64,000 nucleotides of DNA from Porifericola rhodea (GTDB lineage Bacteria > Bacteroidota > Bacteroidia > Cytophagales > Cyclobacteriaceae): the NCBI RefSeq assembly GCF_030506305.1, contig NZ_CP119421.1:612354-676353 (forward strand). Reading direction: 5' to 3'. This document shows, in pieces, positions 1 through 3,115 of the stretch. The notes beneath the pieces were generated by a model that did no database searches, was not told where the DNA came from, and was given only the letters and a program-made list of their open reading frames with translations. Position 1 is the stretch's first letter. Every line of letters begins with the position of its first letter. The position numbers and the translations under genes are program-made.

Positions 1-59
1 TTAAGCTCATCTTTCAGCTTCTGTAATCCTTCTTGTGTGTAATAAGATATTTGTGCCAT
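1..59 (-). CDS. greA: Transcription elongation factor GreA, N-terminal fragment (runs off the window edge)
   Basis: The minus strand from an ATG at 57-59 encodes about 19 residues, MAQISYYTQEGLQKLKDEL, which match the start of GreA: a short lead, then the SYYT/EEGL-type beginning of the N-terminal coiled coil. GreA binds the secondary channel of RNA polymerase and stimulates cleavage of backtracked transcripts. Only the 5' end lies in the window. The leader is unusual, because an intrinsic terminator ends about 28 bases before the start codon and no promoter is visible in between. The identification rests on a short segment, but the motif is distinctive. Confidence 0.82.
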   Translation of the reverse strand, partial: MAQISYYTQEGLQKLKDEL

Positions 60-87
60 ACTTATTGATGTTTAATCATGTACCACT

Positions 88-123
88 AAAAAAACAAAAG
101 AACGGCATACAAAAGCAGCCGTT
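88..123 (-). terminator. Intrinsic terminator just upstream of greA
   Basis: On the minus strand a 6-bp stem (AACGGC/GCCGTT, at 118-123 and 101-106) with an 11-base loop is followed by CTTTTGTTTTTTT (100-88). It lies downstream of purB and of the promoter at 207-236, but upstream of the greA start codon at 59. It could end the purB transcript, act as an attenuator in the greA leader, or form the 3' end of a short RNA. Confidence 0.7.
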
Positions 124-201
124 TCTAATGGTATTGTTATTAAATAAAATATTTCTTTGTTAGTGTGCTTCTGTCTGAAGCCTCTCGCAGTGCGTTACCA
201 A
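88..201 (-). ncRNA. Candidate short leader RNA upstream of greA
   Basis: Transcription from the promoter at 207-236 would begin near 201 and stop at the terminator at 88-123, giving an RNA of roughly 110 bases. Its sequence holds a small hairpin (GCTTC/GAAGC with a 5-base loop, at 167-181) before the terminator. No ORF of note is present. This is inferred from promoter, hairpin and terminator only. It may be just the greA 5' leader with an attenuator. Confidence 0.35.
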
Positions 202-206
202 GAGCG

Positions 207-236
207 TAAAAATAGAGAAATTAGCCAAAATTTCAA
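207..236 (-). promoter_or_regulatory. Candidate promoter for greA or its leader RNA
   Basis: On the minus strand TTG (236-234) is followed after 19 bases by TATTTTTA (214-207), one mismatch from the Bacteroidota TAnnTTTG element. It lies between the purB stop codon (317) and the greA start (59), and points toward greA. Confidence 0.42.
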
Positions 237-316
237 CGAAAAATATAAAATCAGCCCTTGCTGCCTGCCTTATCTAGTCAATATACTAAGTTTTCGCAAA
301 AAATGTTCTTTTATTT

Positions 317-1669
317 TTAATGGCTGCTTAAACCAGTATAATTGAACGGAGTAATGGCTAACAACTCCTGTTTAATGGTATCACTCACTTCCAGTGTCTG
401 GATAAACTGTTTAATAGTAGCTTCAGTAATTTTTTCCTGCTTGCGAGTTAAGCCTTTGAGCGCTTCATAGGGTTGAGGATAAGCTTCGCGGCGGAGTACC
501 GTTTGAATAGCCTCTGCCACTACTGCCCAGTTCTCTTCCAGGTCGTCTTTAATTGCCTCTTCATTAATTTCAATCTTGCCCAATCCTTTAAGCAGAGAGT
601 GTAAAGAGATTAGCATGTGGCTGAGGGGCATACCTACATTTCTTAATACTGTAGAGTCTGTAAGGTCGCGCTGCAAACGAGAAATAGGTAGCTTTGACGA
701 CATATGCTCAAAAAGTGCATTGGCAATACCAAGATTACCTTCTGCATTTTCAAAGTCAATAGGGTTTACTTTATGAGGCATGGCCGAAGAGCCCACTTCA
801 TTGGCAATCACGCGTTGCTTAAGGTAGTTCATAGACACATACTGCCATACGTCGCGACTAAAGTCCAACAGAATTACATTGATACGTTTAAGAGCATCAA
901 ACATTGCCGCCAGCATATCATAATGCTCTATCTGTGTAGTTGGATGACTCCTGCGAAGCCCCAGGTACTGCTCAGTAAACTTGTTCCCAAATGCAATCCA
1001 GTCAAAATCGGGGTAAGCTACCACATGAGCGTTAAAGTTACCAGTAGCGCCTCCAAATTTAGCTACATGAGGAATAGCCTCAAGCAATTGCTTTTGTTGC
1101 AGTAACCTTTCATGAAATACCATCCACTCTTTGCCTACCCGAGTTGGTGACGCAGGCTGGCCGTGAGTTCTGGCCAGCATAGGAATTTCTTTCCAGCTAA
1201 CTGCCTGCTCTTCAATTTTGTCCATCACCTGACTTAATAGTGGCATTACTACAGACTCCATCGCTGCTTTTAAAGAAGCAGGTATCGCTGTATTGTTTAT
1301 ATCCTGAGAGGTAAGCCCAAAGTGTATAAACTCCTTAGACGAAGTAAGCCCCAACTTATCCCATTGTTCTTTCAGAAAATACTCTACTGCCTTTACATCA
1401 TGGTTAGTAGTTTTTTCTATTTCTTTGATGGCAGTAGCATCCGCTTCGCTAAAGTTTTGGTAAATCGCTCTAAGCTTAGGAAAAACAGAGGCATCTACCC
1501 CTGCAAGCTGTGGTAGGGGCAATTCGCAAAGCGCGATAAAGTACTCTACCTCCACCTGCACGCGATATTTTATCAGAGCATATTCAGAGAAAAATCCTGC
1601 TAGCTCTTCAACTTTATTTCTATAGCGGCCATCTACTGGCGAAATGGCAGTTAATGTATTCAAATTCAT
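317..1669 (-). CDS. purB: Adenylosuccinate lyase
   Basis: The enzyme is cytoplasmic and acts in purine biosynthesis. It releases fumarate from SAICAR and from adenylosuccinate. The 450-residue product is close to the E. coli length (456) and opens with the usual LTAISPVDGRY start. The TTNHD segment (around 87-91) and the ARTHGQPASP segment (166-175, H169) carry the conserved histidines. The superfamily signature GSSAMPHKVNP lies at 293-303, in the mobile loop that holds the catalytic serine. The ATG at 1669 is well placed. A TATTTTTG element at 1735-1742 could serve as its -7 box. It is transcribed toward greA, from which a terminator separates it. Confidence 0.97.
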   Translation of the reverse strand: MNLNTLTAISPVDGRYRNKVEELAGFFSEYALIKYRVQVEVEYFIALCELPLPQLAGVDASVFPKLRAIYQNFSEADATAIKEIEKTTNHDVKAVEYFLKEQWDKLGLTSSKEFIHFGLTSQDINNTAIPASLKAAMESVVMPLLSQVMDKIEEQAVSWKEIPMLARTHGQPASPTRVGKEWMVFHERLLQQKQLLEAIPHVAKFGGATGNFNAHVVAYPDFDWIAFGNKFTEQYLGLRRSHPTTQIEHYDMLAAMFDALKRINVILLDFSRDVWQYVSMNYLKQRVIANEVGSSAMPHKVNPIDFENAEGNLGIANALFEHMSSKLPISRLQRDLTDSTVLRNVGMPLSHMLISLHSLLKGLGKIEINEEAIKDDLEENWAVVAEAIQTVLRREAYPQPYEALKGLTRKQEKITEATIKQFIQTLEVSDTIKQELLAITPFNYTGLSSH

Positions 1670-1734
1670 GATGTCTGATGATTTTGCGGGTCGTAATGCC
1701 CCCTCTTTATAGATTATTGGTTTGTAATACCGCG

Positions 1735-1742
1735 CAAAAATA
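1735..1742 (-). promoter_or_regulatory. Possible -7 promoter element of purB
   Basis: The minus strand reads TATTTTTG, an exact TAnnTTTG match, about 65 bases upstream of the purB start. No clear TTG was found at the expected -33 distance, so the support is partial. Confidence 0.3.
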
Positions 1743-1832
1743 GCTTAAAAAAAGGGAATATGTGAGTGCCAGGCAGAATATCCTCCTGACATATATTTAG
1801 CTCTCTAAGTAAAACGTGGCTAATAAAGTTTT

Positions 1833-1861
1833 TTTGTATTGCGAGCCAATCCTTAGATTTT
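1833..1861 (+). promoter_or_regulatory. Candidate promoter of the PaaE-like reductase gene
   Basis: TTTG (1833-1836), a 17-base spacer and TAGATTTT (1854-1861, one mismatch to TAnnTTTG) lie about 100 bases before the ATG at 1961, in the gap between the divergent purB and reductase genes. Confidence 0.35.
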
Positions 1862-1960
1862 TGCTTTCAGAAGTCCAATTTTCAAACAATTTCTTCTTCT
1901 TGAGCGAATATATAGAAGACTTTAAATTGAAAACTAATTTTAAGTAATAGATATTTCAGG

Positions 1961-3115
1961 ATGAGCAAACAATATCATCAATTACGTGTAAGAGAAATTA
2001 TAAGAGAAACAGCAGATGCTATATCAATAGTATTTGACCAGGGAGAAGAGCGTCTTCAGTATAAGCCCGGGCAGTTTCTTACTCTGATTATTCCTATAGA
2101 TGGCGAAAAAGTAAGACGTTCTTACTCTTTATCAACCTGTCCGTTTTTGGACAAATACCCTGCTGTCACTATTAAAAGAGTAGCTTCCGGTAAAGTTTCT
2201 AACTTCTTGAACGATCAGCTTAAGCCAGGTGATACTTTGGAGGTGATGGAACCTATGGGCATGTTTACCACACCGCTCATTGGTACTGAACAGCGGCACC
2301 TTATCATGTTTGGTGGCGGAAGCGGCATTACCCCACTTATGTCTATCATGAAATCCGTACTGTATGCCGAACCCAAAACCAAGGTATCTTTAATCTATGC
2401 TAATCGTGACAAAAACTCTATCATCTTTAAAGAGCAGATAGAAGCATTAGAAAAAAAGTACGACAATACCTTTAGGGTTATACATATACTGGAACAGACT
2501 TCAGCAGAGTTTAGAGCACTCAGTGGCAGAATAGAACCTGTACAGCTTGGGCAGCTCCTGCGAGAATTACCACAACATCCGCCAGAAGATACAGAGTATT
2601 TTGTATGCGGACCTAGCGGGATGATGCAAAATGTATTGGAAGGGCTAAAAATGCTCAATATTGACCCCCACCGCATTCATAAAGAAAGTTTTGTGGCTGG
2701 AGTTACATCTCCTGCAGGTAATAAATCACAGGAGTTTATCCCTTCTCCTCAAAACAGTGAAGTAGCGGACGAAACCAAATATAGCGCAGCGGAAGAAAGT
2801 GTAATTGGAGCCTACAAAACAGAAAACATGAGCGTAAAAGAAGCTCAGGAAGTTACTGTAGTGTACGATGGTGAAGAATACACTTTTCTGGTAGAGCCAG
2901 ATAGCACCATATTGCATACTGCCCTCGCTCTGGATATTGACCTCCCCTACTCCTGCCAGAGTGGCATCTGTACTGCCTGTATGGGTAAGTGCACCTCAGG
3001 TAGAGTTAAAATGGATGAGGAAGATACTCTTACTGATGGAGAACTTCAGCAAGGCTTTGTGCTTACCTGCGTAGGCCATCCGCTTACCCCTAATGTGAAG
3101 ATTGTAATTGACTAA
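1961..3115 (+). CDS. PaaE-like flavin/2Fe-2S oxidoreductase (ferredoxin-NADP reductase fold plus C-terminal ferredoxin)
   Basis: The 384-residue protein carries electrons from NAD(P)H through FAD to a plant-type [2Fe-2S] cluster, and normally feeds an oxygenase or desaturase. The FAD-binding barrel covers about 1-110, with the RRSYSLS flavin motif at 52-58. The nucleotide-binding domain follows, with GGGSGITPL at 118-126. The ferredoxin domain fills the last 90 residues, with cluster ligands C332, C337, C340 and C370 (C-x4-C-x2-C-x29-C). This layout matches PaaE/PaaK of phenylacetyl-CoA epoxidase, but no paaABCD genes are in the window. The oxygenase partner is therefore unknown, and the paa symbol is not assigned. 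Confidence 0.85.
   Translation: MSKQYHQLRVREIIRETADAISIVFDQGEERLQYKPGQFLTLIIPIDGEKVRRSYSLSTCPFLDKYPAVTIKRVASGKVSNFLNDQLKPGDTLEVMEPMGMFTTPLIGTEQRHLIMFGGGSGITPLMSIMKSVLYAEPKTKVSLIYANRDKNSIIFKEQIEALEKKYDNTFRVIHILEQTSAEFRALSGRIEPVQLGQLLRELPQHPPEDTEYFVCGPSGMMQNVLEGLKMLNIDPHRIHKESFVAGVTSPAGNKSQEFIPSPQNSEVADETKYSAAEESVIGAYKTENMSVKEAQEVTVVYDGEEYTFLVEPDSTILHTALALDIDLPYSCQSGICTACMGKCTSGRVKMDEEDTLTDGELQQGFVLTCVGHPLTPNVKIVID

Follow-up and report, generated by a model that had tools for sequence, protein, structure and literature searches.

Genes and features at the Porifericola rhodea greA locus

The window analysed here is a stretch of 64,000 nt from Porifericola rhodea contig NZ_CP119421.1 (positions 612,354-676,353, forward strand). 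It opens on the 5' end of greA, which encodes a GreA protein of 157 aa; the bulk of the gene lies outside the window and was taken from the genome around it. Some 258 nt lie between the greA ATG and the next gene upstream, which we take, from its sequence, to be that for adenylosuccinate lyase (purB). The first-pass annotation had placed a promoter, a small hairpin and an intrinsic terminator in this gap, ahead of the greA ATG, and all four were confirmed at those places on the minus strand (Table 1).

Table 1. Features of the greA leader and its neighbours. Positions are those of the window, except for the HIT-family gene, which is given on L002, a copy of the same locus.
Feature	Position	Strand	Basis and details
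greA, 5' end	1-59	minus	ATG at 59-57; PF01272 match
Spacer from terminator to greA ATG, 28 bases	60-87	minus	no promoter visible
Predicted intrinsic terminator	88-123	minus	stem AACGGC 123-118 / GCCGTT 106-101; loop of 11 nt; T-rich tract CTTTTGTTTTTTT 100-88
Small leader hairpin, GCTTC-AGACA-GAAGC	167-181	minus	sequence, fold and genus alignment; 5-bp stem without U tract
Putative promoter, sigma-A type of Bacteroidota, TTG-N19-TATTTTTA	207-236	minus	sequence pattern; TTG at 236-234, TATTTTTA at 214-207; predicted start ~202
Upstream gene, presumably purB, 450 aa, same direction as greA	317-1669	minus	ORF list; outside the element
HIT-family gene	L002:1537-1932	minus	7 bp after greA; family named from its H-x-H-x-H-x motif

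The -7 box of the putative promoter ends in A, the consensus base being G. According to passages of the Flavobacterium psychrophilum transcriptome paper, the corresponding TAnnTTTG box lies at -12 to -5 in that species (PMC9723704), and when this spacing is applied to the window, transcription is predicted to start at about 202 and a terminated RNA to be about 110 nt long. From the predicted start to the terminator the sequence has no ATG. The small hairpin was kept in 3/3 genomes of the genus with a variable loop, and the longer leader that carries it as an extra structure is likewise common to these three genomes. The terminator scored -7.5 (hairpin) and -5.0 (tail) with a TransTermHP-like finder, a program written for this analysis after the scoring of TransTermHP and not TransTermHP itself; the same finder detected the E. 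coli GraL terminator, used as a positive control (-12.9 and -5.07).

Several further candidates in this region were rejected. An outer helix, UACCAUUA/UAGUGGUA, which would lengthen the terminator of the window, was not kept in the two genus relatives, and a five-codon reading frame directly before greA (ATGATTAAACATCAATAA, start at about 79) lacked its ATG in both. There is also no genome-wide family of such hairpins: the pattern AACGG-N5-15-CCGTTCTTTT occurred just once in the 5.49-Mb genome, at greA, and a reversed control pattern was also found once. Just behind the upstream gene, a block at window 270-310 (minus strand), ACATTTTTTGCGAAAACTTAGTATATT, was largely kept in the three genomes of the genus.

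In 1000 dinucleotide shuffles of the 258-nt gap, an equally good terminator arose 4 times and the promoter pattern 18 times, while both in order never arose. The promoter pattern is present once in the gap and had a density of 0.028 per kb over 400 kb of the P. rhodea genome. Other signals from the window were weak. A generic terminator scan of window positions 1-3000 gave one terminator-like site, with 2.5 expected, and missed the terminator of the greA leader because its loop of 11 exceeds the limit of 8 in that scan; the fold of the whole leader was only slightly more stable than that of shuffled sequences (z of -1.56 and -1.40). Significance therefore rests mainly on conservation.

Conservation of promoter and terminator before greA

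Loci containing greA were drawn from 3/3 genomes of the genus, 145/148 of the family and 158/158 of the phylum, and from named genome records (80 loci). The family and phylum genomes were read in part, as the returned loci plus 93 fetched stretches, which were chosen at about one per genus within the family and as a hand-picked spread of families elsewhere. GreA-family paralogues (L006-L010), two copies of the P. rhodea locus itself (L001 and L002), two loci without a nearby start codon (L220 and L214) and three loci with identical upstream sequence were left out. This gave 227 greA loci, and 226 with at least 150 nt upstream, since L061 (upstream only 130 nt) was also set aside. The three score levels of the finder were the first ones tried and were then kept; counts of promoter boxes, of T tracts, stem positions and antiterminator pairing, and of upstream ORFs refer to the loosest level, and those of tandem terminators to the intermediate one.

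Within the 150 nt that precede greA, a terminator-like element was found in 205/226 distinct loci and in 133/678 shuffles, counts that are not independent events because many loci come from related species. At the strict cut-off the figures were 125/226 and 2/678. The element was present in 86/90 loci of the family of P. rhodea, in 70/78 from named records (a sample mostly, but not wholly, outside the family), in 28/32 from other members of the class, in the one locus from another member of the order, and in 20/25 from other classes of the phylum. Control genes of the P. rhodea genome, with an upstream gap of at least 100 nt, carried it in 35/184 cases (8/184 at the strict cut-off). Elements no more than 60 nt from the start codon were found at 186/226 greA loci (strict, 110/226), against 20/184 control genes (strict, 3/184). 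At one control ORF (L240:288-591, minus strand), a strong terminator lies 39 nt ahead of the start, with a promoter-like box upstream of the terminator; the ORF may be a second attenuated gene, or spurious.

21 of the 226 loci had no element according to the finder. An evident hairpin was missed in three of these (L027, L028 and L155), and no hairpin was evident before greA in L121, L137, L207, L208 and L233. At least two terminators were called in the 150 nt before greA in 25/226 loci. Two successive terminators stand behind one promoter in L015, L017, L056, L106 and L128. The idea that GreA-family paralogues share the leader was dropped, as the five paralogue loci (L006-L010, all within the three genomes of the genus) had no terminator before them, and L263, which matches PF01272 over part of its length, has a weak terminator upstream (-4.5/-4.82).

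When hairpins were picked regardless of any T tract, they were present at 211/225 greA loci and in 78/225 shuffled sequences. The share of T behind these hairpins was 0.62-0.82 in the first 8 bases and fell to 0.2-0.3 just beyond 12, and that of A behaved in the opposite way. A tract specific for T at this position indicates an intrinsic terminator and not a generally A+T-rich start region.

Of the 205 loci with an element, 172 had a TAnnTTTG box no more than 130 nt ahead of the stem, compared with 67/615 shuffles, and 87 had a TTG at the correct distance from the box, compared with 5/615. Outside the class, the box was found in only 3 of 20 terminator-bearing loci. Between the stem and the greA ATG there was no TAnnTTTG in any of the 205 loci, and a relaxed form of the promoter occurred behind the stem in 2/205 loci and 11/615 shuffles. 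The first-pass annotation had proposed that greA expression needs read-through of the terminator, and these counts agree; the arrangement of the predicted signals gives good support to the view that greA is reached by read-through. Conservation of the promoter-terminator order in close relatives had been set beforehand as the point on which the proposal could fail, and the order was found in close and distant relatives alike. As judged from sequence, the layout of promoter and terminator before greA is strongly conserved across the sampled Bacteroidota.

Changing hairpins and minimal leaders

Among the 86 terminators from the family, 65 had a stem of the form ACGG..CCGT. An alignment of 57 of these 65 hairpins, chosen by hand to reduce near copies, had 86.8% of its cells paired, with double changes in 6 of 12 pairs. 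Covariation was evident, with 44 double-changed cells against 18.6 in shuffles, and 0/500 shuffles reached as high a value. Many loci of the Flavobacteria type carry the stem AATCCCG..GGGATT or AATCTCG..GGGATT, and still other stems are found in other groups. The predicted parts are thus kept in order while the letters of the hairpin change from group to group.

The distance from promoter box to stem also varied; its median was 29 nt for loci of the family and 7-8 nt for the remaining samples of Bacteroidia. If the box is set at -12 to -5, 69 of the 172 loci with a box have a stem that begins within 5 nt of the predicted start. The predicted terminated RNA had a median length of 45 nt over the 147 loci with a box no more than 60 nt before the stem. 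For the non-family Bacteroidia, here the named-record and other-class samples, the medians were 34-35 nt. A stem at the predicted start leaves no room for an aptamer, a leader peptide or an antiterminator. Where the leader was at least 12 nt long (n = 97), pairing of the 5' arm of the stem with upstream RNA had a mean probability of 0.333, compared with 0.366 in shuffled leaders.

Attenuation as a probable explanation of the greA leader

The best known leader of this kind is GraL of E. coli, in which a promoter, a short leader and an intrinsic terminator likewise precede greA and full-length mRNA needs read-through. According to passages of PMC6829880, about two thirds of E. coli transcripts end at GraL, and overproduction of active GreA gives more GraL and less of the read-through product, or greA mRNA. 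This autoregulation requires catalytic GreA and GraL in cis; it was seen in vivo only and was not reproduced in vitro, which leaves a direct GreA route unproven (PMC6829880). The Bacteroidota leader has, in its predicted features, what characterizes GraL, namely promoter, terminator and greA in this order, with conservation beyond chance. The two differ in dimensions and in sequence. The end of the stem lies 103 nt from the ATG in E. coli GraL and 41 nt in P. rhodea; the stretch ahead of the hairpin measures 19 nt in E. coli (PMC6829880), about 80 nt in P. rhodea and 0-5 nt in many of its relatives; and the hairpin sequences are dissimilar, as the first-pass annotation had said they were.

5' terminators before greA are known from a broad range of bacteria. 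In the survey of 302 species by Naville and Gautheret (2010), greA/rnk came seventh among the gene families that carry 5' terminators, and their paper reports such greA leaders for Proteobacteria, bacilli and Clostridia (PMC2965389). As in the Bacteroidota, 5' terminators were enriched over many species and the sequence differed between groups. Each cluster that they modelled has an antiterminator (PMC2965389), whereas the Bacteroidota leaders have none above chance, so that the competing antiterminator of the Naville and Gautheret models was not found here. The five GreA-family paralogue loci of the genus have no terminator before them.

The first-pass annotation had considered the arrangement notable for a Bacteroidota genome. 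This holds for the phylum-wide conservation, which is new, and less so for the idea, which has the precedents just named. The word stem Bacteroid* is absent from the main text of PMC2965389, and there is no passage on greA in the main texts of the F. psychrophilum transcriptome (PMC9723704), the B. thetaiotaomicron atlas (PMC10994844) or the 104-motif paper (PMC2864571). In titles and abstracts no report of a terminator in a Bacteroidota greA leader was found; such a leader may be among the 64 structured 5' regions listed in the F. psychrophilum supplement. A known RNA family was rejected for the leader: Rfam 15 gave no match at gathering score in 20 greA loci, and none near gathering in window positions 1-500. 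The novelty lies in the conservation of the leader throughout the Bacteroidota and in its minimal form.

Going by the order and conservation of these predicted features, the leader of greA very probably acts as an attenuator of transcription that works like GraL of E. coli. RNA polymerase would start at about 202, make a leader of about 80 nt and meet the terminator at 123-88. In some fraction of rounds, itself inferred, an RNA of about 110 nt would be released; in the remaining rounds the polymerase would read through into greA and the HIT-family gene, and the cell would meter GreA by how often the polymerase passes the stop. The most likely signal, at somewhat below even confidence, would be the activity of GreA on the polymerase, as in E. 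coli. In the minimal relatives nothing comes before the hairpin, which leaves the polymerase, together with its bound factors, as the only plausible sensor.

The other explanations differ from attenuation in what the hairpin is or in what it does. The least likely takes the hairpin for the 3' terminator of the gene upstream or of an unrelated small RNA, and puts the greA promoter behind it. In the window purB does run in the same direction as greA, and 116 of the 126 loci in which the nearest upstream ORF (at least 150 aa) is co-directional carry the element, but so do 20 of the 22 with a divergent ORF (69/79 under a looser ORF rule), and where a promoter box was found it stood before the hairpin and never behind it. 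Retention of the element next to a divergent gene means that it is not the 3' end of the neighbour. Ordinary 3' intrinsic terminators have the same G+C-rich stem and subsequent T tract; unlike them, the greA element lies between the greA promoter and greA even when the upstream gene is divergent. Only a shade more probable, and still very unlikely, is a role of the hairpin as a 5'-end stabiliser or translation element of greA mRNA with no termination. 5'-end mRNA stabilisers sit at the start of a transcript, where the stem is predicted to lie in the 69 loci with the shortest leaders. Against this reading are the T-specific, A-poor tract behind hairpins that were picked regardless of it, the roughly 80 nt that separate the stem from the predicted start in the window, and the 29-nt median between box and stem in the family.

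Two readings keep the terminator and add a further activity, and each appears improbable. In a classical attenuator, a competing antiterminator or a leader peptide would set the outcome; an antiterminator accompanies every greA/rnk leader cluster modelled in PMC2965389, the genus has its extra conserved hairpin, and the leader of P. rhodea can form a longer helix around its terminator. Antiterminator pairing was nevertheless no better than in shuffled leaders, the longer helix was not kept in the two genus relatives, and the leader of the window has no ATG ahead of its terminator. The short RNA could instead be a trans-acting regulator in its own right, as passages of PMC2965389 and PMC6829880 propose for E. 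coli GraL. Differences in RNA sequence between groups, together with the short predicted length (median 34-35 nt among the non-family Bacteroidia), mean that action in trans gains no support here. The main rival to GreA feedback is a constant brake, in which the terminator reduces the expression of greA and the HIT-family gene by a constant factor without sensing anything. Its anatomy is the same and only the signal differs; it is possible, if rather unlikely. Antiterminator pairing that does not exceed chance, the lack of room for a sensor in 69/172 loci and the lack of a known effector for the greA leader in these bacteria all fit such a brake. A weaker promoter, however, would presumably achieve the same at lower cost, and phylum-wide maintenance of promoter and terminator through changing sequence, with tandem terminators in 25/226 loci, would seem to point to control of read-through; in E. 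coli, moreover, the amount of termination tracks GreA (passages of PMC6829880).

Even in E. coli, how GreA feeds back on greA is an unsolved problem (PMC6829880). Leaders made up of only a terminator at the very start of the transcript, as predicted for many species of this phylum, would be a natural reduction of the system, in which any regulator has to work directly on the polymerase. Tentatively, and at lesser confidence than GreA as the signal, Bacteroidota greA may be under a naked attenuator, in which the terminator is made from about the first transcribed base, the polymerase and bound GreA do the sensing with no RNA sensor, and the device is kept phylum-wide while its sequence is rewritten. 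If this is true, and given the similar devices of Proteobacteria and Firmicutes, self-metering through termination would be a general property of GreA.

Control by the attenuator probably extends over a greA-HIT operon, so that a single termination switch is likely to serve greA and the adjoining HIT-family gene. An ORF with the H-x-H-x-H-x motif was found on the same strand, no more than 700 nt downstream of greA, in 109 of the 137 loci with enough flanking sequence.
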